Shown: in pieces, positions 18,902 to 56,317 of the stretch | How the letters are laid out: each line of letters opens with the position of its first letter | Position numbering within the stretch: the stretch's first letter is position 1 | Assembly (NCBI GenBank): GCA_013036095.1 | Contig: JAAXCW010000004.1 | Span: 62,001-126,000 of the forward strand | From: Vulcanimicrobiota bacterium | GTDB taxonomy: Bacteria > Vulcanimicrobiota > Vulcanimicrobiia > Vulcanimicrobiales > Vulcanimicrobiaceae | Reading direction: 5' to 3' | DNA length: 64,000 nucleotides | Notes under the pieces: model-generated | What the model saw: only the letters and a program-made list of their open reading frames with translations | Told to the model about the DNA's origin: nothing | Database searches by the model: none | Translations under genes and position numbers: made by a program

Positions 18902-20485
<1,584 letters not shown>

Positions 20486-20487
20486 CG

Positions 20488-21060
20488 ATGTCTCCTGAGT
20501 GGCTGACTGCGATCGGAACGCTCGGCACGTTCGTCGTCATCGCGGCGTCGGCGGCGGCGGCACTCTTCCAACTGCGCCACATGCGCGGTAGCAACCAAAT
20601 CGTCGCGCTGACCGAATGCCGTGAAACGCTCGAGTCGCCGGAATTCGGAGAAGCTCAGAATTTCGTCTCGTTCGAGCTGCCCAAGCGCCTGAATGATCCG
20701 GCCGAGCGCGCGAAAATTTCCCAGATTCCCTTCCCCGGTGAGTATAAGCAGATCGGAACGGTCGCCAATTTTTTTGAAAGCATGGGGATGTTCGTCAAGA
20801 AGGGGATTATCGACCAGGAGCTCGCGTGCGATTTTTGGTGCTGGAGTGTCGTGCGCAATTGGACGGCACTTGCGCCCGTCATTACCTATGTGCGGCAAAA
20901 GATCGGCGTGCCGGCGCTTTGGGAAAATTTCGAGTACATGGCCGTACTTTCTGACGACTACTTGCGAGCGCATCCCGGCGGCAACTTCCCTGCGAGCAAA
21001 AGGCGCATGCCGCAGGACAATTCGCTCATGGATTTGATCGGAAACCGCAATGACGCCTGA
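20488..21060 (+). CDS. DUF4760-like membrane-anchored protein, paralogue 1 of 3
   Basis: 190 aa. Begins SPEWLTAIGTLGTFVVIAASA, a single N-terminal membrane helix, followed by QLRHMRGSNQIVALTECRETLES, a central FFESMGMFVKKGIID and a FEYMA element near the C-terminus. The pattern of N-terminal helix plus alpha-helical domain resembles DUF4760 proteins of unknown function. It starts two bases after the carboxylase stop and overlaps the next paralogue by 11 bases. No enzymatic motif is seen. Confidence 0.75.
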   Translation: MSPEWLTAIGTLGTFVVIAASAAAALFQLRHMRGSNQIVALTECRETLESPEFGEAQNFVSFELPKRLNDPAERAKISQIPFPGEYKQIGTVANFFESMGMFVKKGIIDQELACDFWCWSVVRNWTALAPVITYVRQKIGVPALWENFEYMAVLSDDYLRAHPGGNFPASKRRMPQDNSLMDLIGNRNDA

Positions 21061-21628
21061 GTGGCTGACCGCGTTCGGAACGCTCGGTACGTTCGTCGTC
21101 ATCGCCGCTTCAGCAATGGCCGCATTAATGCAACTGCGCCACATGCGCAGCGGCAATCAAATTGCGGCGCTCACGGAAATACGTGAAACGATGGAATCAA
21201 CGGATTTTCGGCAAGCTCTCCGATGGACTGCGCACGAGCTTCCCCGGCTGCTGGAGGAGCCCCGTATCCGAGCCCTGATCGCGAACCCCGGGCCGCTATC
21301 GCCCGAACTGGAACAAGCTCGCACGGTTGCAAATTTCTTCGAGACCACGGGCGCCGCCGTGCGCCACGGATTCATCGACCGCCGAATAGCTTGCGATCTT
21401 TGGGGTTACGTCGTGATTCGAAACTGGACCGTGCTATCGGCTTTCATCGCGAACCGGCGCGCGGCCGTCGACCCAAACCTCTTCGAACACTTCGAATATC
21501 TCGCCGTGATTTCGCGGCACTGGACTGCCGAACACCGCGACGGCACATATCCAAAGGATTTGGAACGCATGCCGCTTCCGGAGCCCTGGACGATCGACCG
21601 GAAGGATGAATCATCGCGTGTCTCCTGA
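21050..21628 (+). CDS. DUF4760-like membrane-anchored protein, paralogue 2 of 3
   Basis: 192 aa. Same plan as its neighbours: TPEWLTAFGTLGTFVVIAASAM helix, ALMQLRHMRSGNQIAALTEIRETMES, VANFFETTGAAVRHGFIDRRIACDLWGY and HFEYLAVISRHW. The N-terminal 45 residues are nearly identical among the three copies, while the rest has diverged, so the duplication is old but the anchor and first helix are constrained. Overlaps both neighbours. Confidence 0.75.
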   Translation: MTPEWLTAFGTLGTFVVIAASAMAALMQLRHMRSGNQIAALTEIRETMESTDFRQALRWTAHELPRLLEEPRIRALIANPGPLSPELEQARTVANFFETTGAAVRHGFIDRRIACDLWGYVVIRNWTVLSAFIANRRAAVDPNLFEHFEYLAVISRHWTAEHRDGTYPKDLERMPLPEPWTIDRKDESSRVS

Positions 21629-22157
21629 GTGGCTGACGGCGTTCGGAACGCTCGGAACATTCGTCGTGATCGCCGCGTCGGCAATCGCAGCATTGCTGCA
21701 ACTGCGCCACATGCGCGGCGGCAATCAAATCGTGGCGCTCACCGAATGCCGTGAAAAACTCGAGTCCGATGAATTTCAGGTTGCCCGGCGCTTTATCACG
21801 GTCGAGCTGCCGGCACTGTTACAGGATGCCGAGCTGCGGCGAAAATTTCAATCCGAGCCCACCACGCCGCCCGAACTACGCCCGGCGGTGAACGTGGCGA
21901 ATTTTTTTGAATCCATGGGCGCGTTCGTTCGTTTTGGCATCATCGACCGTACCATCGCATGCAGTCTTTGGTGCGGCGTCGTCGCCGGTTCGTGGAATCA
22001 ACTTCTGCCGATGATTCGCCTGCGCAGGACACGAGATCCGGCGGTGTGGGAGTTTTTCGAATATCTGGCCGCGATTTGCACTGAATTCATGCGTGAACAC
22101 CCCTCCACATATCCGCGCGGTGCGCCGCGCATGAACGTCGGGGAAGACCCGGGCTAG
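21618..22157 (+). CDS. DUF4760-like membrane-anchored protein, paralogue 3 of 3
   Basis: About 179 aa. Starts VSPEWLTAFGTLGTFVVIAASA if GTG 21618 is used, which aligns exactly with the starts of the other two copies; ATG 21606 four codons upstream is an alternative but has its ribosome site directly abutting it. The rest follows the family plan (VANFFESMGAFVRFGIIDRTIACSLWCG, FFEYLAAIC). The stop overlaps the convergent lipoprotein gene by four bases. Confidence 0.72.
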   Translation: MSPEWLTAFGTLGTFVVIAASAIAALLQLRHMRGGNQIVALTECREKLESDEFQVARRFITVELPALLQDAELRRKFQSEPTTPPELRPAVNVANFFESMGAFVRFGIIDRTIACSLWCGVVAGSWNQLLPMIRLRRTRDPAVWEFFEYLAAICTEFMREHPSTYPRGAPRMNVGEDPG

Positions 22158-35722: not shown

Positions 35723-35795
35723 GGGGATGTAGCTCAGCTGGTAGAGCACTTGCTTCGCATGTAAGGGGTCGGGGGTTCGAGTCCCCCCATCTCCA
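35723..35795 (+). tRNA. tRNA-Ala (anticodon CGC)
   Basis: 73 bases that fold as a cloverleaf: acceptor GGGGATG / CATCTCC (one G-U pair), D arm GCTC...GAGC, anticodon stem CTTGC / GTAAG around loop TTCGCAT with anticodon CGC, and T arm GGGGG TTCGAGT CCCCC. Discriminator A73; CCA is not encoded. Its 3' half is repeated at 37364-37406 and, less exactly, at 41929-41973, marking it as an integration target. Confidence 0.95.
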
Positions 35796-35830
35796 CAAAA
35801 TATCAAGCATGGTTCCGCTTGTTCATCCTT

Positions 35831-37207
35831 TCACGGAACCATCGTGCCATCTGGTTTTCGCAGCAGGCCGCTGCACGGATTGTTGTTTGCGCATTCCTTT
35901 GGTTGAAAAGCGCTCAGCGGCAGATCGAGGATGGGAGCGTCGGGCTTGTCCGGGTTGTAAGTCCACAATATCGCATCGCGATTGGGAAACACTATCCAAA
36001 CCGAGAATTCATTCCCTTGGTCGATTATAATCTCGAAGGCCTTCTGCATATCGGGTGCCACAGCTGTTGCCAGGTCATTTTTCCCCAATTCTCTGAGATT
36101 CGACAAAAATGTCTGCTGCTCACCGGGTGTCATGGAAACCGTGTCTTCGTTCTGCAGCTCGACCTCCAGCTTAAAGTTAGGATTGGCCTTCAGGACCCGC
36201 TGAACCCAAGGAAGCTGCGTAGCGACAAACATAAAATTCCGAGCCGTCGGTATTGCTTGTGTGTTGAGGATCGCGTTGTTGACGATGGGCAGACGCACAT
36301 TAGCACCAACATTTGGAGGGGAGTCATCCCACCACAACGCTGTGTCCCAGACCAGCGATCCAGAAGCGATCGGATTATAGTTAGGGCTTACGTGGACATT
36401 GTATCGTCTCTCTAATGCGGAAATTAGCGGTTTTACGTTGTACTTTGGAACCTTATTCCAATCCGCCGAGATCTCGTCTGCGACGAGCAACGGAATCTCC
36501 TCCAAAAATATACTTCGGGAGAGAACCGTGTAATTCGGATCGTTTGGCGTCAAGAACGAGAAAATCGCATCCGAAACGGCCGGATCAAACGTCGTTCGAG
36601 ATATACCCGCCCGCGTTATGACCCAAGGCAGCATGAGCATTGCTTTGCTATCCGAGTGGACCGTAGCGGTGCTGCCACCAGACAACTTGAGAGTAACCAG
36701 CACCTCATGATCGTCATCGGCAATCGCAAAATTGCCGGCGTAATAGCGGCCTAAGCTGGCCGAAACAATGTGCATATCTTTGTAGGATGCGATGTACATC
36801 TTTCGCTGCGCGGCGCTAAAAAAGCCGTTGCCGCCAGGACTGCGCCCACTGTAAACTGCTTGTAAGAAAGCATTATCGGCGGTTGCGTTGAGCCAATCGC
36901 TCCTGATTCCGAAATCCTCATGCAGTGGAACAGATCGGGGTGTTCGAGAAATCGCCGAAATCAGCGCGCTAATTCTCTCGTCCGGAACGACGTGACCGTC
37001 AATCATGAATTTTCCGTGACTTCGCGCGATCATCAAATCGTCACGGTCTTCGGGCCCATCGGGCTGACCTGGCGGCAGCGGCAAGCCCTGAAACGTTGAG
37101 TATATTTCTATCGACGAAACGGAGCCTGGCGACAGAGCCGGCAGCGCGGCCACAGTACCCAAATAGACGATGCATCCCAAGCCGATCCGCAACGCTATAT
37201 TCCGCAT
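35831..37207 (-). CDS. exported protein of unknown function, 458 aa
   Basis: Sole gene of island 1. ATG 37207 has a strong GGGAGGTGAGC ribosome site; an upstream in-frame extension to 37288 runs into the terminal repeat and is not needed. Signal peptide RIGLGCIVYLGTVAALPALS. The first half contains HGKFMIDGHVVPDERISALISAI, similar in flavour to polymer-binding or tail-type domains; the second half is unrecognised (ALWWDDSPPNVGANVRLP, TPGEQQTFLSNLRELGKND). A C-terminal CANNNPC pair may form a disulfide. I know no family. AT-richer than the flanking chromosome. Confidence 0.75.
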   Translation of the reverse strand: MRNIALRIGLGCIVYLGTVAALPALSPGSVSSIEIYSTFQGLPLPPGQPDGPEDRDDLMIARSHGKFMIDGHVVPDERISALISAISRTPRSVPLHEDFGIRSDWLNATADNAFLQAVYSGRSPGGNGFFSAAQRKMYIASYKDMHIVSASLGRYYAGNFAIADDDHEVLVTLKLSGGSTATVHSDSKAMLMLPWVITRAGISRTTFDPAVSDAIFSFLTPNDPNYTVLSRSIFLEEIPLLVADEISADWNKVPKYNVKPLISALERRYNVHVSPNYNPIASGSLVWDTALWWDDSPPNVGANVRLPIVNNAILNTQAIPTARNFMFVATQLPWVQRVLKANPNFKLEVELQNEDTVSMTPGEQQTFLSNLRELGKNDLATAVAPDMQKAFEIIIDQGNEFSVWIVFPNRDAILWTYNPDKPDAPILDLPLSAFQPKECANNNPCSGLLRKPDGTMVP

Positions 37208-37237
37208 ATGCTCACCTCCCGTATACGCAGCCCCAAT

Positions 37238-37406
37238 ACTCCGCCATTGTTCCGCCAATTTGGTCCGCATCGTCCAGAACGGGCGCAAACGAGATCAGGC
37301 ACCGCCGCTCGTCACTCGCTGCTTTCGCCGTCCTGTTTTGTTCGGCAGGATCCGTCTTTTGTTCTTCGCATGTAAGGGTCGGGGGTTCGAGTCCCCCCAT
37401 CTCCAC
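37238..37406. repeat. island terminal direct repeat with tRNA-Ala 3' fragment, copy 1
   Basis: About 169 bases starting TACTCCGCCATTGTTCCGCC and ending with the tRNA 3' half (37364-37406). An imperfect second copy is at 41802-41973. In the minus direction it lies just upstream of the 458-aa gene and could carry its promoter. It contains a spaced direct repeat TGGCGGA-ACAA-TGGCGGA on the minus strand. Confidence 0.85.
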
Positions 37407-37625
37407 CATTTGGAAGCCCGTTTTGCGCTTAGCGCGGCGGGTTTTCTGCTTATCGGCGAGCACAACGACCTTCGAGTCCGCCATTTGGTACGCCATTTTT
37501 GCGAAAGTCTTCTCGCTGAGCTTGGCCGGTTCAGAGCCGACCGAAGTCGCTCGCAAATGTGCGTATGTGTCCGCAGTGACCTTTATGCTTGAGTGGCCGA
37601 AACGTGACTCTCGAAATGCCGGCGT
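37404..37625 (-). pseudogene. C-terminal remnant of a tyrosine recombinase (phage-type integrase)
   Basis: In the minus strand an in-frame TAA at 37626-37628 is followed by FRESRFGHSSIKVTADTYAHLR, the conserved box of tyrosine recombinases between the second arginine region and the catalytic tyrosine (GHSSIKVTADTYAHL, tyrosine in TYAHL vicinity). The frame then continues through a lysine-rich tail into the tRNA repeat. All of the catalytic domain upstream is missing, replaced by the end of the GH64-like gene region. Orientation toward the tRNA repeat is that of an integrase at its attachment site. Confidence 0.8.
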
Positions 37626-37654
37626 TTACGGAGCCCCTTCCCGATACCGGCATG

Positions 37655-39880
37655 CTAGAAACCACCAACGTTCATTGGTATGGCAGGACAGGGGTTAGGG
37701 TCCGGTGACGCTACCGGATTCGGGCTCGACGGCGCAGCCGCTACGGGAATCGGATTGATACGAACCGAAATCGCGTGGCTGTAGCTATAGTGTAGCGTTG
37801 TCGCAAGATCGAAGAAATCGTCGAACGCTAATGCGTAAGAACGATTGTTATCAAAATATTTGTGTAGAATCACGGCGTACGTGTCGAACATCGGATCCGC
37901 AAACAGCGGCGAAAATGATGGCGGCATAAACTTATTTCCCGCTGACGAATAGTAGTATCCGACGGGATGCTCTTGGGTCGAGAGACCGGTTCCGTATACG
38001 AGTTCTGCGTTCATCGCCTTCCATAACGCAAACGCATCACTTGTGTGGAAGATGTGGTCAGTTTGCGGAATACCAGCAATCCCGTTGTTGTCCACGTTGG
38101 CGAGCCCCCATGGCTGGCTAAGGAGAAGCGCCAGTTTACAGCCGCCACCACCATCGTTGGCCGGCGGAATGCCGTACAAGAACTCCTGTACAGGCATCTT
38201 AAATGGATTTACCGGCGCTCCCGGCCTGCTTGGCGCCGGTGTGTAGCCGGCGTTGCACATTGGCGGCGACGACGGGACAGGAGCGGCCACGCCCGGGCCG
38301 GGTCCCACATCGGTCATGATAAAGTTTGAGTTATTGTCAGAACTAACGCAGTAGATATCGCCACTGCCCTTGGCACCTGCAACCACCGTCAGGTTCGTTG
38401 AATACATGCGCGGCGTCGTCGCATATGACGACATGATGCAACTCAAATAGCCATATGTTGTGGGCCCGGTGCAGGGGGCCGGAATTGGCGCGGGTAGCGC
38501 TGAAGCGTCGCCGAGCACATTCCATTCAAAGGCGCTTACGCCCTCAGCCTGCTGTGGGTTGAGAATGCGTAAGTCGTAGTTCGTGCCGTTAAAGGGCTGC
38601 GCGATCACGAGCTTCCCGTACACGGGGTCTGCGCTCATGTCTCTAAAAATGTTTGCAAAGTTGCAGGAGGATACTCCGACAACTAAGGTTGTGCTGCCAC
38701 ATGCCGGCCGTATGGGAAGCGGCGCGCTCGCCGGCTGCGTGCTCAGATCCATTGGCAAGCCGAGCGCATCCACTTGCGTTGTATCGATGATGAGGGCAGA
38801 GTCGTTCTTCGTGCCACCCTCGACGAAGTCATACGGATACGGCGCTCTACCGTACGAAAAACCCGGCCCCGCATCGAGTGCTGAAGCCATCGGGTTCGGC
38901 ACCTGTTCCGGGTGACCCGGAACAGGAGTCGCATAGACGAAATACCAGCGCCCGCCCGGCATGCCATCAGGGGTTACGAGCTTGACCTTCGATGAAGAAT
39001 TCAAGGTCGTCGAAAAACAGGCTGCCGGCAGCGGTACCGGAACGGACGACGTGAAGTTTTGATTGGCATCGAGCCACCGGATGGTTGTGTCTTTGCTAAC
39101 GACGTACACGATTAAGGGCACGTTCAGCTGCGAGTCGTCCGTGATGTATATGGTTGCTCCGCTCGGATTTGGCGAGGGATTGGCGTAAGCCGCACAATAC
39201 GCGGGTGTCGGCAAAATAGAAGGAGCCGGTTGAGGCGCCGCGGTTGCAGCCACCTGAGTGGTCGTTACGAGCGCATAAATGTATTGTGTGCCCGCGTTGA
39301 ACGCCTGGCCGCTTTGTCTTGAGGTAAATGCAACTTGGTTGCGCGAAGCACCGCTCACCGTCCCTGGCCCGCCGAGTACTATCCACCCTTGCTGCGCGGC
39401 CGTCGCCGGATCCCACATCAGAAGATACGTATTCAGACCTGGCCCGATCGACGTCGATCCACCCAAAGAGAACGTGATCGAGGGTGAACTCGATATCCCG
39501 ATGGCGTTGTCGACAACGACGGTGATGTAGTCGACGACCGTAAGAGTGCCGCCGAAGTCCGCCGGCTTCGTGGGTGCAAGTTGCCGGCTACGCGACATCG
39601 GGGCGAAGGCGTCACCGGGGAGTGTCGAACTCATCGAGATCGTCATATGCGCCGATCCACCGATCGACGCTTGCGGAAATGTGAACCCGGCCGAATTACC
39701 GCCACCATCACCCAAATTGACGAATGCGGAGGATGTACCGACATCGACCGTAGTTGCTCCGATGACCGGCGTGGGCGTGACGGCCGGCAATGCCGGTCCC
39801 GCATTTCGGCCTCCGCAGCCTGCCCCAACGACGAAGGCGACGAGCATAAGCGACGGAAACGCGTGGCGGAAACACAGCAT
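37655..39880 (-). CDS. GH64-like beta-1,3-glucanase lipoprotein
   Basis: 741 aa from ATG 39880 (AGAGGTGG just upstream). Lipobox LMLVAFVVGAGCGG. A beta-sandwich-like N-terminal region (about 60-270) is followed by the thaumatin-like GH64 domain: PLIVYVVSKDTTIRWLDANQNF, GRWYFVYATPVPGHP, YDFVEGG, the diagnostic DTTQVDALGLPMDL, YGKLVIAQPFNGTNYDLRILNP, and C-terminal DDFFDLATTLHYSYSHAISVRI. GH64 enzymes release laminaripentaose from beta-1,3-glucan. Whether the catalytic acids are kept needs alignment. Cargo of island 2, divergent from the beta-helix gene. Confidence 0.78.
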   Translation of the reverse strand: MLCFRHAFPSLMLVAFVVGAGCGGRNAGPALPAVTPTPVIGATTVDVGTSSAFVNLGDGGGNSAGFTFPQASIGGSAHMTISMSSTLPGDAFAPMSRSRQLAPTKPADFGGTLTVVDYITVVVDNAIGISSSPSITFSLGGSTSIGPGLNTYLLMWDPATAAQQGWIVLGGPGTVSGASRNQVAFTSRQSGQAFNAGTQYIYALVTTTQVAATAAPQPAPSILPTPAYCAAYANPSPNPSGATIYITDDSQLNVPLIVYVVSKDTTIRWLDANQNFTSSVPVPLPAACFSTTLNSSSKVKLVTPDGMPGGRWYFVYATPVPGHPEQVPNPMASALDAGPGFSYGRAPYPYDFVEGGTKNDSALIIDTTQVDALGLPMDLSTQPASAPLPIRPACGSTTLVVGVSSCNFANIFRDMSADPVYGKLVIAQPFNGTNYDLRILNPQQAEGVSAFEWNVLGDASALPAPIPAPCTGPTTYGYLSCIMSSYATTPRMYSTNLTVVAGAKGSGDIYCVSSDNNSNFIMTDVGPGPGVAAPVPSSPPMCNAGYTPAPSRPGAPVNPFKMPVQEFLYGIPPANDGGGGCKLALLLSQPWGLANVDNNGIAGIPQTDHIFHTSDAFALWKAMNAELVYGTGLSTQEHPVGYYYSSAGNKFMPPSFSPLFADPMFDTYAVILHKYFDNNRSYALAFDDFFDLATTLHYSYSHAISVRINPIPVAAAPSSPNPVASPDPNPCPAIPMNVGGF

Positions 39881-40138
39881 CTTCCACCTCTGTAGAAAAG
39901 GCGTTATTCTCAAAGAATCAGGCTGCATAAACTCCGTGTCTACGAAACCCGAGCGTGCCATTATAGCACGTCGCTCACTTCGATGGCGCCAGATTTGGAT
40001 TTCCAACTGGCAGAACGTGGCCGAGCTCAAAAGGGCCGAACCAATGACACCTGCAAGGGTGTCCGATGGCTACCGTTGTCCGCCCATTTTGAGTCCGGTG
40101 AAAAAGAAAAAGCCAAAGGCAAACCCTAAAAAAGACCG

Positions 40139-41773
40139 ATGACATCATGGATGCGCACCCGACCAGAATATCTCACGCGGGCGGAACTCCTTGGCGGAAT
40201 TCTAGCCACCGGCGCGCTAGCGGCCTGTGGGGGCAGCACGAATACATCCCCACCGTCCGGCCCCTCGCTGTGCGGTGCCACCTCAGCGACATTGCCCGAC
40301 GTCAATCAAATTTTTTCCGATCCGGCTTTCAACAGATTGGACAAAGCAAGGCTCGCAGCGCTTTACGATTCGTCTGACAAGCTCAAAGGTAACGACGCGG
40401 GATACTTCGAGCAGTCCGCCCAACAGCTGCAGATCAGCAACGTCATTAGGAGCATTCCGCCCTCGGGCATCGTCATTCGCTCGCCCGGAACGTACACGTT
40501 CGCCGGCGACCTTACGTGGACGCCCGCTGCCACGCTCTCGTCGGCGGTTACGATTGTCAGCAGCGATGTGACGCTGAACTTGGGCGGCTACACGCTGACG
40601 GCATCCGTGCCGGACATTTCCTGGCAGACCACCGGCATTTTTGTAGGAACTCCCGCCAACGCGGCGCTCGAGGACGTCAACATTTTTGGCGGGACCATTG
40701 CCAATACCACCGAGTATGGCATCTTCGCCGATGGCGTCTGCGGTCTGGACATTTCGCACGTTACCGTCACCGGGGTGAGCATACAGAATTTGAGTATCGA
40801 CCTGCTAACGCCGGCGGGCATCTTCGTCAGCGAGTCGCTCAACGTGGCAATCACGTACTGCAGCGTTACGGACATGACGGTGAAAGCGGATTCGTCGGCG
40901 GGCATCTTTCTGCTCAAGACGATAGGCGCCAGCGTGAGCAATTGCCAAACCACGTTGCTCGAGAACCTCGATGGTGCCGTGATAGGCTTCAGCAGCATCA
41001 AATCGGTCAATGTGAACACGAGCAATTGCACAGCGCAGAATCTGCAAACGCAATTCGGCGGCAACATCAAAGGGTCGGGACACACGGTGCTCGGATTCTG
41101 TCCCATCCTCTGTTTGAGCCTGAACTACTCCGATTGCTCTGCGTCAAATTTGACCGGGAGTTGTGATGACGTGCATGGCATCTCGGTGTTTCTGGACGGC
41201 CTGGTTAGCGTCGAGAGATTTACCGCGGACACCATCGTCGACGGGCCGCCGCCGTATAACACGGGCGCGAAGGCGACGGGCGTCGAGGTCTATGGGGTCG
41301 GCATCACAGTGAAGGATTCTTCGGCAAGCAACATCATTGCGACCAACCCGCAAGACTTGCAGGCGACCGGATTCAGCGCGTGGGGGCTGACGATCGGCTT
41401 TGACAACTGCACGGCGACGAACGTCGTCGTCAACGGTAAAGGAAATGGTACGGGCTTCGGCTGGGCGCCCGATCCGCGACCGATCTTCGCCCAGCCGGCG
41501 ATCGGCGTGGCGTACACGAACTGTACCGCGAACGCGTGCGCAGTGGGCTTCGACACGTTCTATCACCAAAACTCGGTGTGGACCAGTCCCAAAACAACAA
41601 ACTGCGCGACGCCCATTCTCATCAATCCCACAGAGCAGCGCACGCTCACGTGCGATGGCTGTTCGGAATGCGCGCCGGGCGGGAAACTCAATCCACCCGG
41701 ATACTCTGCGGGGCCGCCGCCATACTATTATGAAACGCTGACGAATGTCGCGAGCGGAAACGTCTTTTTATAG
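40139..41773 (+). CDS. lipoprotein with a right-handed parallel beta-helix
   Basis: 544 aa. N-terminal signal with lipobox (LLGGILATGALAACGG). Residues 95-470 are rungs of a parallel beta-helix: SSAVTIVSSDVTLNLGGYTLTA, DVNIFGGTIANTTEYGIFADGV, LDISHVTVTGVSIQN, VAITYCSVTDMTVKADSSAGIFL and so on, the pattern of pectate-lyase-like/NosD proteins, with many asparagine and cysteine positions at turns. Cargo of island 2 next to a glucanase, which hints at polysaccharide binding or cleavage; no catalytic site can be assigned. ATG 40151 is an alternative start. Confidence 0.82.
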   Translation: MTSWMRTRPEYLTRAELLGGILATGALAACGGSTNTSPPSGPSLCGATSATLPDVNQIFSDPAFNRLDKARLAALYDSSDKLKGNDAGYFEQSAQQLQISNVIRSIPPSGIVIRSPGTYTFAGDLTWTPAATLSSAVTIVSSDVTLNLGGYTLTASVPDISWQTTGIFVGTPANAALEDVNIFGGTIANTTEYGIFADGVCGLDISHVTVTGVSIQNLSIDLLTPAGIFVSESLNVAITYCSVTDMTVKADSSAGIFLLKTIGASVSNCQTTLLENLDGAVIGFSSIKSVNVNTSNCTAQNLQTQFGGNIKGSGHTVLGFCPILCLSLNYSDCSASNLTGSCDDVHGISVFLDGLVSVERFTADTIVDGPPPYNTGAKATGVEVYGVGITVKDSSASNIIATNPQDLQATGFSAWGLTIGFDNCTATNVVVNGKGNGTGFGWAPDPRPIFAQPAIGVAYTNCTANACAVGFDTFYHQNSVWTSPKTTNCATPILINPTEQRTLTCDGCSECAPGGKLNPPGYSAGPPPYYYETLTNVASGNVFL

Positions 41774-41801
41774 CGCAAGCACCTGCGTCCCGCGGGCTGT
41801 T

Positions 41802-41973
41802 TACTCCGCCATTGTTCCGCCAATTTAGTCCGAATCGGCCAGAACACGCCCGAACGAGATCGGGCACCGCCCCATATCACTCGCAGCTTTCGTCGTCCTA
41901 TTTTGTTCGGCTTGATTCGTCTTTTGTGCTTCGCATGTAAGCGGCCGGGGGTTCGAGTCCCCCCAATCTCCAC
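41802..41973. repeat. island terminal direct repeat with tRNA-Ala 3' fragment, copy 2
   Basis: Imperfect copy of 37238-37406; the tRNA-like end is 41929-41973 and has extra substitutions plus one inserted A in the acceptor strand. It closes island 2. The greater divergence from the real tRNA suggests that this is the older boundary. Confidence 0.82.
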
Positions 41974-41988
41974 AAATCGCGTATCTCG

Positions 41989-43083
41989 TTACTGCAGCAA
42001 AAACCCGGTGACCGGCGCCGCGGGCGCGCCCGTGTAAATGATCGTTCCGTTGCCGGCATTGTCGGTTGTGAAGAGTGACGGAACTGTACCTGTGCTGATT
42101 TGCCGAACCAATCCATTGAAATTGCCGGCCGAATCTTCGGTGAACGCCGGAGCCGCGTCGTTTCCCGGATCGTTCAGGCTCGTGGACGACGCGAGGATGT
42201 CGCCGTTCGTATCAACGGTAAAACTGTAGGTGCCGGTGTCATTTGCAATTTGCGTTCCGCCGGTGATCGTCCAGGTGCCCGGTATTGATCCCAAAACGAA
42301 GCCCATCAAGCCCGCCGCTCCCGTAGATGCCTGCATTCCGACGGTGCCATGGCTGGGCGTGCTGACTCCGGGCGGATTGAGTCCGGTATAGTTCATGTTG
42401 AGCGCGAGCGGAATGCCGAGCGAGCTCGTGTTTTGCACGGCCGCGTATCCGCAATTCTCCGCGCTGCCCGCCGTGTAAAGGCAGGCTAATCCGAAGGACG
42501 ACGTCGGCGCTGCCGGCGGAAGTCCGGGCGCGGTTGTTGTTCGCAATACGTAATTCGATGCGATTCCCGTCAAGACGTCCGAAATGTCGTACGTGCGATA
42601 GCCGGTGACCGCTCCGGTTGCAGTGTACGCCGTTTCGCTGCCGGTCGCGCTCAGCGTAGTCGGCGAACCTTTTACGATGAGGAAAGAGTAGGCGTGCAGC
42701 GGATGCGCGCATGCCGAATCGTAAAATGTCGAGATGGTAAAAAGCGCGGACGGCACGCCGCGCACCGGCGGCGGCGGAGCCGGTGAAACGTAGCCAATCT
42801 CAACGTAATGTCCGCTCGGAAGCGGAGGCGGATTCATCACCGGCGCCGTGCAGGCCGGCGTCATCGTAGGTCCGCCGAAGACAACGCCCTCGAGCGTTCC
42901 CGGACCGGCGCCGGCCGAAAGCGCGATGATGAGTTGCGAAGTGGCCATGACCGACTGCGCTTCGGCTTGCTGCACTGCCGGCGAGAGGCCCGGAACGGCC
43001 GGCGGAGTGGGCGCCGAGCTCGCGCAGCCTGAAAAATAGAGCGCGGCGATTCCCGTCAGAAAACGCCGCGCCGAAGAACTCAG
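41989..43083 (-). CDS. lipoprotein of unknown function, probable CTG start
   Basis: The commonly callable start is GTG 42975 (328 aa), but that removes an evident lipoprotein signal encoded in frame upstream: SSSARRFLTGIAALYFSGCASS. No ATG, GTG or TTG precedes that signal after the in-frame stop; CTG 43083 overlaps the stop of the preceding gene as CTGA, the same geometry as ATGA coupling elsewhere here. With it the protein has 364 aa. The mature part is low-complexity and beta-rich (YTATGAVTGYRTYDIS, TWTITGGTQIANDTGTYSFTVD, NDAAPAFTEDSAGNFNGLV) with no known family. Confidence 0.65.
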   Translation of the reverse strand: MSSSARRFLTGIAALYFSGCASSAPTPPAVPGLSPAVQQAEAQSVMATSQLIIALSAGAGPGTLEGVVFGGPTMTPACTAPVMNPPPLPSGHYVEIGYVSPAPPPPVRGVPSALFTISTFYDSACAHPLHAYSFLIVKGSPTTLSATGSETAYTATGAVTGYRTYDISDVLTGIASNYVLRTTTAPGLPPAAPTSSFGLACLYTAGSAENCGYAAVQNTSSLGIPLALNMNYTGLNPPGVSTPSHGTVGMQASTGAAGLMGFVLGSIPGTWTITGGTQIANDTGTYSFTVDTNGDILASSTSLNDPGNDAAPAFTEDSAGNFNGLVRQISTGTVPSLFTTDNAGNGTIIYTGAPAAPVTGFLLQ

Positions 43084-49896: not shown

Positions 49897-52800
49897 CAGT
49901 GCACTTGCGCTGCGCCGGCGATCGTCCCGGCGCCGGCTGCTTTCACGTCGTTCGAGAGCGGCACAAGCGTACCGCTGACAAACGCGTTGTAGCGAGCCAT
50001 CGCAGAGGCGTATTCGCGATCGAAACGGCGCGCATACTCGAGTCGCGCCGGTGTCGGCGGAGCGCCCGCCGCACCGAAGCCGCCACCCGGCAGATCTTCG
50101 CGCAGAGCGCCCGGCCATTGTAAGGAGTCTTCACCGTTCTTGTAGTTGGCCGTGAACGTGCTGAAGATGGCATTGCGCGTCTGCTGAGCAGCAGTTACGC
50201 GTGCGAGAAGTGCACTATTCCCGTTCTTTTGCAGCGCTGCCGCGGCGTCGGCTAACGACTTCTTCTGCGCGTCCAAATTGTTGAGCACCGTGCTGATCTT
50301 GCCCGACATGCCCAAGTATTTCTTCGCGAAGGCGTAGGCCGCGGTGAAGTCCGCTTGCGTGTACGGACTCAGCGGGTCTTTCTTGACGGTGAAGGCCTGC
50401 GTAAACGTGCGGCCGCCAAGCGTGATGCGTGCGGAGTAGTTCCCCGGGGGAGCCAGCACGCCAAGTGCCGCGCCGCCGAACCCACCGCCGGCGCCCAGTT
50501 GCGGATTGCCCGTCCATTGCGTGACGCCGTCTTCGCGGAAATTCCACACGACGCGATTGATGCCGGCGTAATCGGTCGGACCGCCCCCGGCGCCAAAGAA
50601 AACAGGAACCTCACTTGCCGCTTCGCCGCTCGTCCGCGTGGCCCGAACCGGCGGACGGATATGCCGGATCACGGTTCCCTTTGCATTGAGTATCTCGATG
50701 GTCGGCGCAGATTTTTCCGGCGCGCCCAGGTAGTAGTCAATAATCGCGCCGTTGGGCGGATTGTCGCCGCTGAAGCGCGTGTAGAGTCCCTCGTCGTTCG
50801 AGTGCGTCACGTATTGGTAAGCGGTGCGCGGCTTAAAGAGCATCGCACCGCGGCCTTGCGCTTGCGGAAGCTGCTGCAGCGAGGTCAAGTCGTCGAATAT
50901 CCACAGCGCGCGCCCGTGCGTCGCGATCGCCAAGTCGTTGAAGTTCGACTGCTCGCGAATATCGCGCACCGAAACGGTTGGAACGTTCAGTTTGAAGTCG
51001 CTCCAGTGGCCGCCGCCGTCGTAAGAAACCCACAGCCCGTTTTCGGTGCCCGCAAAAACGAGATTGCGGTTGCGGCCGTCCGGACGCACGGTGCGAACGT
51101 ACTGATCGGCGGGCAGTCCGTTGACGATCTTCGTCCACGTGCTCCCGTAGTTGCGCGTCACGTAAAGGTACGGCGCGTAATTGCCGTCGCGGTGATCGTC
51201 AAAAATCGCATATGCCGTGCCCGCTACGATCGGCGAGGGCGCTACGGTCTCAACGCGCGCTAACTCCGGCGGTCCCGAAGGCGTGACGTTACGCCAATGT
51301 TTGCCGCCGTCGCGCGTCACCTGCACAAGCCCGTCGTCGGTGCCGACCCAGATCTCGCCGGCGTGCAGACGCGAGCCTTCGATGTACAGGATGTTGTCGG
51401 AGAACTCCGCGCTCGAAACGTCGGTTGCGAGCGGCCCTCCCGCCGGAATCTGGTGCGCCTTGATGTTGCGCGTCAAATCCGGACTGATGGGCGTCCAATG
51501 GACGCCGCGATCGCTCGACTGGAAGACGACGTCGCCGCCCAGCCACAAGAGCTTGCTGTTCCAAGGGGCGAACGCGATCGGCGAATCCCAGTTGAACCGG
51601 TATTTGCGGTTGGCGAGATTGAACGAGTTACGATCGAAATCGAAGTACGGACTAACGCCGCGCCCCGATTGCAGCTTCTTGCTGTACGCGTTGATGTTTC
51701 CCGTCTGCGAATCGGCCATGATGTAGTTGCCGTCCCCGGGGTCGGGAACCGCCCACATGCCGTCACCGCCGACGACGTTGAGCCAGTCGTCATCCAAGAT
51801 GCCCGAACGGTTGCGCGAATTCGACGGCCCGCAAAAAGCGTTGTTATCTTGCAGCGGCGCACAGACCCAGTACGGATTTTCGTTCGAAAGCCCCACGTGA
51901 TAGACTTGCCCGATCGGTATGTTGCGCGAGAACGACCAGTTGCGGCCGCCGTCAACGGTGAGTGCGTAGCCGCCGTCCTCACCGACGATCATGCGGTTGG
52001 CGTTGTCGGGTGCGATCCACATCGCGTGGTAATCCACGTGAACCGGGTTGGCAATCGTGCGGAAACGCCGGCCCCCGTCGCGACTTTCGGCGAGCTGCTC
52101 CGAAACGGCATACACGTGATTGGCATTGCTTGGATCGATGTTGATATGCGTGAAATAAAACGGGCGCTGATCGACCAGCGTGTCGTCGCTGACCATCTCC
52201 CAGGTAGCACCGGCGTCGTCGCTGCGCCACAGGATGCCGCCCTTGGCTTCTATGACGGCGTAGACCCGATTACTGTTATTTGGAGCGACGGCCACCGCGA
52301 TGCGTCCCATCTCGCCTGTCGGCAAACCGTTGCCGGTCAGCTGCGTCCAGGTCATGCCGCCGTCGGTCGATTTATAGAGGCCGTCTTGCGGGCCGCCGCT
52401 GTGGAACGTCCACGGCAGGCGCCGGAACTGCCACATGCCGGCATAAAGCACCGCCGGATGATTTGGATCCATCGCGATTTCCGATGCGCCGGTCTGCGGG
52501 CCAACGTAGAGGGTTTTCGTCCAGGTTTGCCCGCCGTCGTTGGTGACGAAGACGCCGCGTTCGGTGCTGTCACGGAACGGATCGCCGCTCGCGCCGACAA
52601 TGACGTGATTGGGATTGCCCGGATCGACAACGATTCGCGAGATGTGCCGCGTGTCGCGCAGCCCGACGTTCGTCCACGTCTTACCGCCATCGGTCGACTT
52701 ATAGACGCCGTCGCCATAACTCACGTCATTGCGCGGATTCGATTCTCCGGTCCCGACCCAAACGGTATTTTCGTTGGTCGGGTCGATCGTCACAGCGCCG

Positions 52801-53069
52801 ATCGCGGAGACCGGTTGCTTCTCGAAGACCGGCGTCCACGTCGCGCCGCCGTTTTCCGTCTTCCAAACGCCGCCCCCCGCGGAGCCGATGTAATAGAGAT
52901 TGACATTCGCGGCCGTTCCGGCGACCGCAGGCACGCGTCCGCCCGAAACGGCAGGTCCGACCGACCGCCATCTCAGGTGCGCGTACGCGGGATCCGCCGC
53001 GCCTTGCGCGACGGCGAGCTGCGCGAAAGACAGCGCAAATATAATTGCAAGAAGACGAGGCATACCCAT
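49896..53069 (-). CDS. exported sortilin/VPS10-like BNR propeller protein, paralogue 1
   Basis: 1057 aa; signal peptide LLAIIFALSFAQLAVA. A double beta-propeller of about 700 residues carries Asp-box-like repeats (GGGVWKTENGGATWTPV, DGVYKSTDGGKTWTNVG, GVFVTNDGGQTWTKTL, GLYKSTDGGMTWTQL), followed by a C-terminal region with VIRHIRPPVRATRTSG and a coiled helical end (ADFTAAYAFAKKYLGMSGKIS). This family is labelled glycosyl hydrolase or sortilin-like; bound ligand unknown. It lies 14 bases downstream of its paralogue and overlaps the HD gene. GGAG precedes ATG 53069. Confidence 0.88.
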   Translation of the reverse strand: MGMPRLLAIIFALSFAQLAVAQGAADPAYAHLRWRSVGPAVSGGRVPAVAGTAANVNLYYIGSAGGGVWKTENGGATWTPVFEKQPVSAIGAVTIDPTNENTVWVGTGESNPRNDVSYGDGVYKSTDGGKTWTNVGLRDTRHISRIVVDPGNPNHVIVGASGDPFRDSTERGVFVTNDGGQTWTKTLYVGPQTGASEIAMDPNHPAVLYAGMWQFRRLPWTFHSGGPQDGLYKSTDGGMTWTQLTGNGLPTGEMGRIAVAVAPNNSNRVYAVIEAKGGILWRSDDAGATWEMVSDDTLVDQRPFYFTHINIDPSNANHVYAVSEQLAESRDGGRRFRTIANPVHVDYHAMWIAPDNANRMIVGEDGGYALTVDGGRNWSFSRNIPIGQVYHVGLSNENPYWVCAPLQDNNAFCGPSNSRNRSGILDDDWLNVVGGDGMWAVPDPGDGNYIMADSQTGNINAYSKKLQSGRGVSPYFDFDRNSFNLANRKYRFNWDSPIAFAPWNSKLLWLGGDVVFQSSDRGVHWTPISPDLTRNIKAHQIPAGGPLATDVSSAEFSDNILYIEGSRLHAGEIWVGTDDGLVQVTRDGGKHWRNVTPSGPPELARVETVAPSPIVAGTAYAIFDDHRDGNYAPYLYVTRNYGSTWTKIVNGLPADQYVRTVRPDGRNRNLVFAGTENGLWVSYDGGGHWSDFKLNVPTVSVRDIREQSNFNDLAIATHGRALWIFDDLTSLQQLPQAQGRGAMLFKPRTAYQYVTHSNDEGLYTRFSGDNPPNGAIIDYYLGAPEKSAPTIEILNAKGTVIRHIRPPVRATRTSGEAASEVPVFFGAGGGPTDYAGINRVVWNFREDGVTQWTGNPQLGAGGGFGGAALGVLAPPGNYSARITLGGRTFTQAFTVKKDPLSPYTQADFTAAYAFAKKYLGMSGKISTVLNNLDAQKKSLADAAAALQKNGNSALLARVTAAQQTRNAIFSTFTANYKNGEDSLQWPGALREDLPGGGFGAAGAPPTPARLEYARRFDREYASAMARYNAFVSGTLVPLSNDVKAAGAGTIAGAAQVH

Positions 53070-53083
53070 GTTAGCTCCCTAGA

Positions 53084-56000
53084 TTACATGCCGGCCGCAA
53101 CCGGCGCGGCTCCTGTGATGGCCTTTAAGCCCGCTTTGGTCAGCGCGGCGTTCAAGGCCGGAATGGTCGTACGCGCAAATGCGTTGTAGTTGGTGACGCC
53201 AGACGCGTACTCGGTATCCACGCGCTGACCGAAGTTCGTAATCGCCGGCGTAATGAGGCCGAATCCAAAGAATCCCATGCTTTGGATGTCTTCGCGCAAT
53301 GCGCCCGGGCGCTGGATGGAATCTTCGTCGTTGTGGTAGTCCGCGGTCAATTGGTGGAAGACCGTGTCGCGCGCAGCTACGGCCGCCGCGATTTGCTGTT
53401 GAAGCGAAGCATCTGCTTTAGCCTTCGGGTCGGCAGCGGCCGCGTCGAGCTGCGCCTTCACCGAATCGAGCGTGTTGAGCATCGTATCCACGACCGAATA
53501 CTCACGGTAGTATTTTTTGACGAACGCGTAGCTGCGTTCGTAGTCGGCTTGCGTAAAGGCTGATTTCGGATCGGGTTTAATCGTAAACGGCTCCGTAAAT
53601 GTCTTGCCGCCAACGGTCATGCGCACCGCATAACGTCCCGGCGGCACGTACGCACCTTCATCCGGACCTTGATACGCTATCTTGGCCGCTCCGGTCCATT
53701 TCACCGGACCGTCGATCTGGAAATCCCAGACGTAACGGTTGATCCCCACTTTATTGGTCACTCGCGGAATCTCTCTGCCGGTGTTGGTCTTGCGCGACCC
53801 TTGTATCGTGCGGATCACCTGACCCGACGAATTCAGGATCTGAATCACCGGCGCGGTCTTTCCGGGCGCCTTCTGATAAAAATACGTCACCGCTCCGTAC
53901 GGCGGGTTTTGGCCGGCGTAGTCGGTGTAGGTGCCTTCGTCATCGGAGTGCAGCGTGTACTGGTAGGCGGTCCGCGGCCCGATGACCAGGGCACCTTGCG
54001 CGATGGCTTTTTGCAACTGCTGAATGATGCGCATGTCGTCCATGACGTAGATCGAACGGCCATGCGTCGCGATCACCAGATCGTCGAACTGCGGCTGGAA
54101 GCGAATCTCGCGCACCGAGACGGCCGGAATATTATTGCGGAAGTCTTGCCAGCTCTTGCCGGAGTCAAAGGAGATCCAAAGGCCGTTCTCCGTTCCGGCG
54201 TAGAGAATGTTGGCGTCGTGAATATCCTGCCGTACCGACCGGATGTATTGATCGGCGGGCAAATTGCTCACGATCGACGTCCACGTCTTGCCGAAATCGT
54301 TCGACATGAACAGATACGGCTTGAAATCTCCCGACTTGTGACGGTCGATGTTCACGAAAACGGTTCCATCGTGCAGCGTCGACGGCGCGGTCGTTTCGAC
54401 GCGGCCGTAGGGCGGCACGCCCGGCGGCGTAACGTTGTGCCAGGTCTTGCCTCCGTCGAGCGTCATTTGCACGAGTCCGTCATCGGTCCCGACCCAAATC
54501 TCGCCCTTGTGACGCGTCGAGCCTTCAATATAAATAAGGTTGTCCGAATACTCCGCACCCGAGACGTCGTGCACGAGCGGACCGCCGGAAGGCTGTTGGT
54601 GCGATTTGTCGTTCAGTGTAAGATCGGGGCTGATGATCGTCCAATGCCGTCCGCGATCGGTGCTCTGGAACAGCACGTTTCCACCGAACCAAGCGACGTG
54701 CGGATTCCACGGCGCGAACGCAATCGGTGAATCCCAGTTGAACCTGAACTTGCTCTTTGCAAGATCGTAGCTCTCGATCGAATCTTGGATGTAAGACATC
54801 GCGAGAATCGTGTCTTTGGTCACCTTGTTGTAGACGGTCAGCACGCCGTTTTCCGAGTCGCCCCACAGCCAATTCGGATCGGCAGGATCGGGCACGACCC
54901 ATTCGCCGTCGCCGCCCACCGCCGCTACCCAATATTTATTGAGTATGCCCGACGAGTCGAGCGAATTCGAAGGTCCGCACCAACCGTTGTTATCTTGCCA
55001 GCCGCCGCACACCCAGTACGGGTTCTCGTTGGACATGCCGATGTGGTAGACCTGACCGATGGGAATGTTGCGATCGAAGAACCAGTTGTCGCCGCCGTCA
55101 ACGGTGCGCGCGATTCCGCCGTCCGCGCCGATGATCATGCGGTTTGGATTGTCCGGCGCGATCCAGGCGGCGTGATAGTCTACGTGGACCTGCTGCGCCG
55201 TTTCGGTGAATTTCTTACCGCCGTCGGTCGAGACGGCCAGCATCTCCGAAATTGCGTACACCTTATCGGCGTTCTTCGGATCGACGATAAGATGCGTGAA
55301 ATAAAACGGCCGCTGGTCAACCAGCGTGTCGTTGCTGACCATCGTCCAGGTCGAACCGGCATCATCCGATCGCCAGAGAATACCGTCGCCGGATTCGATG
55401 ATCGCATAAACGCGATTGCCGTCGCTTGGCGCCACGGCTAATCCAATACGGCCCGTGAAGCCGGTGGGCAGGCCTTTGGCCGATCCCGTCAGTTTTGTCC
55501 ACGTGCGCCCGCCGTCGGCGGAGCGGTAAAGCCCGTCATCGGGACCGCCGCTCGTAAACGTCCAAGGCTGACGTAAAAAATGCCACATACCCGCGTACAC
55601 GACGTTGGGATGCTGCACGTCCATGGCCATGTCGGAGACGCCGCTTTGGTCGCTGACGTAGAGCGTTTTGCTCCACGTCTTGCCGCCGTCATCGGTGACG
55701 TAGACGCCGCGATTCTCATTAGGACCGAAGACGTCGCCCAGCGCGCCCACGATCACGTGGTTCGGATCGCGCGGATCGATCAGGATACGCGAGATATGGC
55801 GGGTCTGCATCAGGCCCACGTTGGTCCACGTCTTGCCGCCGTTGGTGGATTTGTAGACGCCGTCGCCGTAGCTCACGTCGTTGCGCGGATTCGATTCGCC
55901 CGTGCCGACCCAGACGACGTCGTCGTTGGCCGGATCGATCGCGACCGCGCCGATCGCCGAAACTTTTTGCTTGTCGAAAACAGGCTGCCATGTCTCGGCG

Positions 56001-56317
56001 CCGTCGGTGGATTTCCATACTCCGCCGCCCGCTGCTCCGAGATAGTACAAATTGGCGTCGCGCGCCGATCCGGCGACCGCTGCGACGCGTCCGCCGGGAA
56101 GAGCCGGACCGATTTCGCGCCAGTTCATGTTGGAAAAGGGCGGACCCGGCGTCGGCGTTGGGCTCGGCGCGGGAGTGGGAGCCAGCGGTTTGGTCGGTTC
56201 GCCCGTCGCGCCCGGACGCGGAGCCGGCGTCGGGGTCGCCTGCGCGCCCGCGGCTTGGGGCGCGAAAATCAGCGCAAAAAACGCAAAAATAGCGAGAGAC
56301 GGAATGCGTCGCAACAT
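53084..56317 (-). CDS. exported sortilin/VPS10-like BNR propeller protein, paralogue 2
   Basis: 1077 aa; signal SLAIFAFFALIFAPQAAGA and a Pro/Thr linker (TPTPAPRPG, PTPAPSPTPTPGPP). Same propeller plan as the next gene: GGGVWKSTDGAETWQPV, VWVGTGESNPRNDVSYGDGVYKS, GVYVTDDGGKTWSKTL. Long runs are near-identical to the paralogue (TGESNPRNDVSYGDGVYKST, VDQRPFYFTH), so they arose by tandem duplication. The C-terminal half (YRYVWDFQIDGPVKWTG, YERSYAFVKKYYREYSV) also aligns. Role may be extracellular protein or polymer binding. Confidence 0.88.
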   Translation of the reverse strand: MLRRIPSLAIFAFFALIFAPQAAGAQATPTPAPRPGATGEPTKPLAPTPAPSPTPTPGPPFSNMNWREIGPALPGGRVAAVAGSARDANLYYLGAAGGGVWKSTDGAETWQPVFDKQKVSAIGAVAIDPANDDVVWVGTGESNPRNDVSYGDGVYKSTNGGKTWTNVGLMQTRHISRILIDPRDPNHVIVGALGDVFGPNENRGVYVTDDGGKTWSKTLYVSDQSGVSDMAMDVQHPNVVYAGMWHFLRQPWTFTSGGPDDGLYRSADGGRTWTKLTGSAKGLPTGFTGRIGLAVAPSDGNRVYAIIESGDGILWRSDDAGSTWTMVSNDTLVDQRPFYFTHLIVDPKNADKVYAISEMLAVSTDGGKKFTETAQQVHVDYHAAWIAPDNPNRMIIGADGGIARTVDGGDNWFFDRNIPIGQVYHIGMSNENPYWVCGGWQDNNGWCGPSNSLDSSGILNKYWVAAVGGDGEWVVPDPADPNWLWGDSENGVLTVYNKVTKDTILAMSYIQDSIESYDLAKSKFRFNWDSPIAFAPWNPHVAWFGGNVLFQSTDRGRHWTIISPDLTLNDKSHQQPSGGPLVHDVSGAEYSDNLIYIEGSTRHKGEIWVGTDDGLVQMTLDGGKTWHNVTPPGVPPYGRVETTAPSTLHDGTVFVNIDRHKSGDFKPYLFMSNDFGKTWTSIVSNLPADQYIRSVRQDIHDANILYAGTENGLWISFDSGKSWQDFRNNIPAVSVREIRFQPQFDDLVIATHGRSIYVMDDMRIIQQLQKAIAQGALVIGPRTAYQYTLHSDDEGTYTDYAGQNPPYGAVTYFYQKAPGKTAPVIQILNSSGQVIRTIQGSRKTNTGREIPRVTNKVGINRYVWDFQIDGPVKWTGAAKIAYQGPDEGAYVPPGRYAVRMTVGGKTFTEPFTIKPDPKSAFTQADYERSYAFVKKYYREYSVVDTMLNTLDSVKAQLDAAAADPKAKADASLQQQIAAAVAARDTVFHQLTADYHNDEDSIQRPGALREDIQSMGFFGFGLITPAITNFGQRVDTEYASGVTNYNAFARTTIPALNAALTKAGLKAITGAAPVAAGM

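Follow-up and report, generated by a model that had tools for sequence, protein, structure and literature searches.

Two tandem islands without an intact integrase at a tRNA-Ala(CGC) gene of an uncultured soil bacterium of the Eremiobacterota

The window analysed here, a 64,000-nucleotide stretch of contig JAAXCW010000004.1, belongs to an uncultured soil bacterium (Eremiobacterota) and carries two small islands in tandem behind its tRNA-Ala(CGC) gene. From sequence comparison, the two elements were very probably integrated in succession at the anticodon loop of this tRNA by a tyrosine integrase, and the integrase was lost afterwards. The host assembly (G000) has 2.58 Mb in 19 contigs, with 97% completeness and 6.6% contamination. 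ARAGORN detected one tRNA gene in the window. The GC content was 52.6% for island 1, 57.5% for island 2 and 60.8% for the window. The boundaries of the array are as follows.

35723–35796, forward strand: intact tRNA-Ala(CGC), the putative integration target (ARAGORN).
About 35753–35796, forward strand: core within the tRNA-Ala(CGC), from the anticodon loop to the 3' end.
35797–37406, unstranded: island 1, 1.6 kb with its right-end core copy counted in; lacks an integrase as well as left arm sites.
37237–37363, forward strand: right terminal block of island 1 (right attachment (att) arm region), about 86–87% identical to 41802–41928; also in G003, G005, G006 and contig C17.
37364–37406, forward strand: second core copy, right end of island 1 and left end of island 2; attP-like, with arm pairs on both sides.
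37407–41973, unstranded: island 2, 4.6 kb including the right-end core copy.
41802–41928, forward strand: right terminal block of island 2.
41929–41973, forward strand: third core copy, which closes island 2 on its outer (right) side.

A sequence-only reading of this DNA had proposed that the 3' half of the tRNA recurs at 37364 and 41929, each time after a related block, and this was confirmed. The 3' part of the tRNA, from nucleotide 29–31, recurs at 37364–37406 with one base deleted, and at 41927/41929–41973 with two substitutions and one inserted base. On the 5' side of each copy lies a common block of about 127 bp (37237–37363 and 41802–41928), and block and core copy together showed 87% identity over 172 bp between the 37237 and 41802 copies (expectation value (E) 8e-53). 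The window has two occurrences of a 22-bp sub-motif from the block, against 0 expected from 100 shuffles. The block was searched across the host genome and one extra copy was found, on contig C17. In a survey of 118 relatives the block was confined to the genus and the tRNA 3' part was widespread. The core copies start at tRNA nucleotides 27–32 in all genomes examined, except one short fragment.

Paired repeats flank the cores at fixed distances. Three pairs are present in the window.

37240–37261, forward strand: right-end pair of island 1, two 11-bp arm-type sites (TCCGCCATTGT/TCCGCCAATTT) 124 bp ahead of the core.
41805–41826, forward strand: right-end pair of arm-type sites of island 2, again 124 bp ahead of the core.
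37477–37499, forward strand: TCCGCCATTTGGTACGCCATTTT, the left arm-type pair of island 2, offset by 113 bp from the core start and contained in the integrase remnant.

The direct-repeat pair TCCGCCATTGT|TCCGCCAATTT stands exactly 124 bp before the core in 7/7 well-preserved right-end blocks of the genus, one of them with the variant TCCGCCATTCT; in the right-end block of C17 the second repeat alone remains, altered. The left pair of island 2 is offset from the core start by 113 bp in the window and by 114 bp in G004, where it matches the right-end pair more closely than the left pair of the window does. Across 99 family genomes the pattern TCCGCCAWTN{1,5}TCCGCCAATTT gave 8 matches; each is an island end at tRNA-Ala(CGC) in the genus, and the reversed control pattern gave 0 matches in the same genomes. 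A search of the GTDB collection returned 36 stretches with the pair pattern, and a core was nearby in the Eremiobacterota ones only; there, the distance from the core motif GGTTCGAG to the pair pattern was 144–145 bp at right ends and 93 bp at the left end. Two matches were found in viral contigs, neither with a core nearby.

Related genera, with other integrase lineages, carry pairs of other types at offsets close to these. G041 and G049 have TACGACAAT pairs at +119, next to their intact integrases, and in G071 and G063 pairs of this type stand at about −148. TGACGACCA pairs were located at +115 in G067, again adjoining an intact integrase, and at −149/+113 in G056. Further pair types are suggested in G020, G018, G081, G069 and G019. 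By one scoring rule (≥9/10 matches within 75-nt windows), a pair was present at 11/27 right ends at core copies and 8/23 left ends at tRNAs, compared with 2/23 on the chromosomal side of the tRNA and 1.3% of random 75-nt windows; the scored junctions are not independent, as several come from one genus or genome. The repeat pairs are best read as putative arm-type sites of an integrase. The tRNA junction has no repeat pairs and is attB-like, and the 37364 junction, with pairs on both sides, is attP-like.

The left pair of island 2 lies within integrase sequence.

37376–37609, reverse strand: what is left of a tyrosine recombinase, about 77 C-terminal codons that read antisense into the core (...FQMVEMGGLEPPT); aligned to the intact integrases of G041, G049 and G067.

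Beside the 37364 copy, the antisense frame encodes ...RFGHSSIKVTADTYAHL...TGFQMVEMGGLEPPT. This is a tyrosine recombinase C-terminus that extends into the tRNA part. Intact integrases occupy the same place and orientation at the tRNA in G041 and G049 (419 amino acids) and in G067 (417–418 amino acids). Their tails read MVEMGGLEPPT, VVEMGGLEPPA or LVEMGGLEPPT followed by PYMRSKCSTS, resembling the window remnant. They share about 30–33% identity with the remnant, so none of them is the cognate enzyme. The G041 integrase, with a SAM-like and a catalytic domain, matched 6en0/6emz in the PDB at E about 1e-10; these entries are named 'Int protein' and represent Tn1549 Int. This match starts at residue 84, so any N-terminal arm-binding domain would lie outside it. 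The truncation point of the island 2 remnant differs among G000, G004, G005 and G006, and in several islands the surviving piece is just the 3' end bearing the arm sites. A full-length integrase was found in 0/14 islands bounded on both sides, and C-terminal fragments in a few. The host genome has five integrase loci, none of them at tRNA-Ala(CGC). Two adjacent integrase-family genes lie at C4:46236–47674 of the host assembly, 14–16 kb upstream of the window start.

These observations suggest the following course of events. A tyrosine integrase of the phage or integrative and conjugative element (ICE) type would have inserted the elements by site-specific recombination at the anticodon loop of the tRNA. 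Each insertion would swap the 3' part of the tRNA for the copy borne by the element and displace the old 3' part rightwards, which would give the array tRNA, island 1, copy, island 2, copy, with the tRNA-proximal island as the later one. Island 2 would then have arrived first and island 1 later. The integrase may have bound the paired 11-bp arm sites, which stand about 124 bp before the core (right pair) and about 113 bp after it (left pair). The integrase gene would overlap the core and contain the left pair near its own 3' end, and island 2 would have lost this gene but for the roughly 77 codons that hold the left arm sites. The binding of the pairs, the order of events and any past excision and transfer are what we infer from sequence. 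Integrase alone could probably delete island 1, whereas for island 2, which has arms on either side, an excision factor would be required.

The occupancy of the site was compared among relatives. Island 1 is present in two genomes (G000 and G003), and island 2 material in several. G001 has the tRNA without the block or a second core copy. In G002 a 55–56% homologue of the 544-amino-acid lipoprotein of island 2 adjoins the tRNA, again with no second core copy. G003 carries island 1, with the 544-amino-acid gene and the block on another contig, and in G004 the left end of island 2 directly follows the tRNA. The order in G005 is tRNA, shortened integrase remnant, GH64-like gene, 544-amino-acid gene (split by a contig break), block and core, and a further 1.1-kb unit ending in another block and core. 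In G006 it is tRNA, a different GH64 lipoprotein (Pfam E 1.9e-58), 544-amino-acid gene, and one block and core. The GH64 slot next to the 544-amino-acid gene is thus filled by different genes in different species. As the genomes of the genus differ at the site, occupancy is variable, and the 6.2 kb do not form a block fixed in distant relatives, a finding that would have spoken against the island reading. Virginiamycin B lyase-like exported proteins are encoded right of the islands in G003 (L070 6493–9072) and, by sequence resemblance, in G006 (L074).

Contig C17 of the host assembly (18 kb, L010) holds island 2 from the GH64-like gene rightwards, with the third core copy joined directly to DNA matching position 43062. 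A long stretch of its flank is syntenic with the window at about 81–85% identity. C17 probably stems from a related strain or species whose DNA was binned into the host metagenome-assembled genome (MAG); with such a flank, a second locus of the same genome is less likely.

The synonymous divergence (dS) of the window genes was computed against G006, C17, G005 and G003. Flank genes, from a mechanically called set that may hold a few wrong open reading frames (ORFs), showed median dS of 0.66–1.03, with minima of 0.20 (G006), 0.50 (C17), 0.38 (G005) and 0.72 (G003). The 544-amino-acid gene had dS of 0.08, 0.12, 0.11 and 0.11, respectively. The GH64-like gene showed 0.28 (C17) and 0.30 (G005), and the island 1 gene 0.31 (G003). 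In each pairwise comparison the island genes thus had lower dS than any flank gene. The ratio of nonsynonymous to synonymous divergence (dN/dS) of the island genes was 0.15–0.63, which is not low, so constraint does not explain their low dS. As island dS is far under flank dS, the island genes probably moved after the species split. Identity with G003, per 150 bp, rises from 69–83% before the tRNA to 80–91% from the tRNA on. Right of island 2, orf41989 (41989–42975) had dS of 0.54 against G005, where the 544-amino-acid gene had 0.11. The stretch 41977–43061 was considered as a third island and rejected; its gene, common to G005, has this flank-like dS, and no att copy was found in a search at its right end.

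Two repeat regions were observed in the flanks. At 20485–21766 there are three related repeats of 130–170 bp, 77–87% identical, and ORF 20353–21156 in this region gave the lowest flank dS (0.20) against G006. At 50745–56112 two neighbouring 2.2-kb stretches, 68% identical, lie in large genes with BNR/sortilin-like repeat sequence.

The islands carry three cargo genes.

35831–37207, reverse strand: island 1, exported protein of 458 amino acids with a signal-peptide-like N-terminus.
37655–39880, reverse strand: island 2, lipoprotein with partial similarity to GH64 (beta-1,3-glucanase) (Pfam PF16483, E 1.2e-11).
40139–41773, forward strand: island 2, 544-amino-acid lipoprotein, repetitive and beta-rich by sequence.

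The island 1 protein had no match in Pfam or NCBIfam. Among the 118 relatives G003 alone has a counterpart, 83–84% identical, and G002 encodes a 41% homologue elsewhere in its genome. Island 2 had been described as an integrase remnant with GH64-like and beta-helix lipoproteins. The remnant was borne out, though limited to about 77 codons. The GH64 match stood for part of one lipoprotein (profile positions 18–212 of 370). The beta-helix found no support in any profile match, PDB match or confident model. The PDB search gave nothing for the 544-amino-acid lipoprotein, NCBIfam was empty for the cargo proteins, and the predicted structures were unusable (mean predicted local distance difference test score 35 for the 544-amino-acid lipoprotein and 32 for the island 1 protein). 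Packaging, capsid or phage-response genes were absent among the three cargo genes and the integrase remnant of the two islands, whose sole Pfam match was GH64. Neither island showed conjugation genes, nor an intact integrase or transfer genes.

The sequence-only reading had supposed that elements accreted at one att site and then decayed, and this is well supported by the paired arm sites, the presence and absence of the islands within the genus, the intact integrases at the tRNA in related genera and the divergence steps. Several points weigh against this reading. An intact integrase matching the remnant, or any intact one beside this tRNA, was looked for in the genus and not found. No left arm pair of island 1 was detected in the 450 bp that follow the tRNA core towards the island, and the same holds for G003. 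Both cores of island 2 are slightly altered, the left ends in G005 and G006 are eroded, and that of C17 is missing at the contig end. The genomes sampled are apparently all MAGs, several of them fragmented, with some islands split over contigs, and the 6.6% contamination of the host bin takes in a second strain's copy of the tRNA locus. Homologous recombination in the locus may also have contributed to the low dS of the 544-amino-acid gene.

The repeats could in principle be segmental duplications of the tRNA and adjacent DNA, with no integrase involved, since other routes can duplicate tRNA fragments. We regard this as extremely improbable and reject a pure-duplication origin: the copies start at the anticodon stem-loop, the block beside them is unlike the DNA beside the tRNA, and the repeat pairs, the integrase remnant and the intact integrases in the same place in relatives would be left unaccounted for. 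A spread of the cargo by ordinary homologous recombination among resident copies of the locus, without recent site-specific movement, is improbable. The stretch common to G005 and G006 begins at the start codon of the 544-amino-acid gene, a mosaic pattern, and the variable GH64 slot would fit as well. However, dS stays high in the flank genes to the left and right, the divergence step of island 1 coincides with the tRNA, and that of island 2 falls at its right end, between the 544-amino-acid gene and orf41989 in G005.

The preferred reading, insertion followed by loss of the integrase, is compatible with the possibility, which we hold only tentatively, that the decayed islands later moved in cis as passengers of a functional neighbour after tandem accretion. 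The tandem layout, the core and arm pairs at both ends of island 2, the tandem arrays of G063 and G071, in which arm types differ at the same tRNA, and published precedent (PMC5704250, PMC3146451) point this way. No functional neighbour is present now, however, and between G000 and G003 the dS of island 1 (0.31) and of the 544-amino-acid gene (0.11) are unlike, so that they probably did not arrive in one event. It had also been suggested that the islands are satellites mobilised in trans. They would then be dedicated integrase-free units that keep their att ends and use the integrase and transfer machinery of other elements at the same tRNA. We consider this unlikely. The lack of a full-length integrase in all bounded islands would agree with it, as would the remnants trimmed to the arm-bearing 3' end and the island of G081 described below, with repeat pairs at both ends and no integrase. 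The different remnant cuts in G000, G004, G005 and G006 favour decay in each lineage over one stripped satellite, and no helper element was found in the host genome, whose five integrase loci all lie away from this tRNA. Island 1 bears on both sides. Without left arm sites it is not a complete substrate by itself on the standard model; yet its integrase-free form is common to G003 with a divergence lower than that of the flanks, so it is the strongest candidate for assisted movement, by a neighbour or in trans. Island 1 appears to have moved between species in integrase-free form.

Further islands were observed at this tRNA in other genomes. In G081, from another family, a 12.8-kb island (C5, L086 4827–17636) is bounded by repeat pairs on either side, lacks an integrase and carries Zorya type II genes (ZorA2, ZorB2, ZorE2) and RmrA/RmrT-like genes. 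G063 has an array of at least four islands (C7:779584–805431; L075, L076) with varied arm types and no integrase gene inside. Its cargo includes a sulfatase, an SDR, a DUF1254/DUF1214 protein and lipoproteins, and two of its left ends are 97.6% identical over 166 bp. In G018 (C6:1476290–1546400) about 70 kb separate the tRNA-Ala(CGC) from a far core copy, with TGTAGCTT pairs at both ends and a 391-amino-acid integrase near the far end.

The locus offers a directly readable att-site grammar, with core, paired repeats, fixed offsets and several specificity types, at one hotspot in a mostly uncultured phylum. It also gives a quantitative sign that small integrase-free islands still moved between species. 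A wider idea, to which we give little credence at present, is that the Eremiobacterota tRNA-Ala(CGC) site hosts very small integrase-free islands spread by the integrases of other elements with matching arm types; such islands would keep the core and arm sites, the last integrase codons surviving as carriers of the left arm. The travel of such islands becomes testable, because the repeat type predicts which integrase pairs with which island. If units of the island 1 type indeed move without left arms, simple models of integrase substrates would need amending.

The array is a known kind of system, unusually clear in this case. The paired repeats on both sides of the core resemble those of lambda and Tn916/Tn1549-type tyrosine recombinases, with putative arm binding; unlike those, the target is a tRNA anticodon loop. 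Tycheposons are marine, tRNA-associated and tRNA-bounded units with adaptive cargo, and the present islands would resemble them in these bounds and in such cargo. The nearest described systems found are the tandem ssrA islands of Dehalococcoides and the cis-mobilizable elements (CIMEs) arranged by accretion. CIMEs (Pavlovic 2004) have lost integration and transfer genes, keep attL and attR, and accrete in tandem (reviewed in PMC5704250). By sequence, island 2 would qualify as a CIME, with a core (slightly altered) and an arm pair at each end and no intact integrase or transfer genes; island 1 lacks the left arm pair and hence the two att ends. No parent ICE or integrative and mobilizable element of the islands was found. 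In Dehalococcoides, tandem islands lie downstream of ssrA (transfer-messenger RNA), each bounded by a copy of its 3' end, and 15 islands without an integration module were suggested to be possibly cis-mobilizable elements (PMC3146451). The Eremiobacterota islands differ in their tRNA-Ala(CGC) target, in a cargo of exported proteins rather than reductive dehalogenases, in repeats of about 45 bp instead of 20, and in the overlap of the integrase 3' end with the target. They share with the ssrA islands the tandem arrangement at one RNA gene, the 3'-end copies, the adaptive cargo and the variation between strains.

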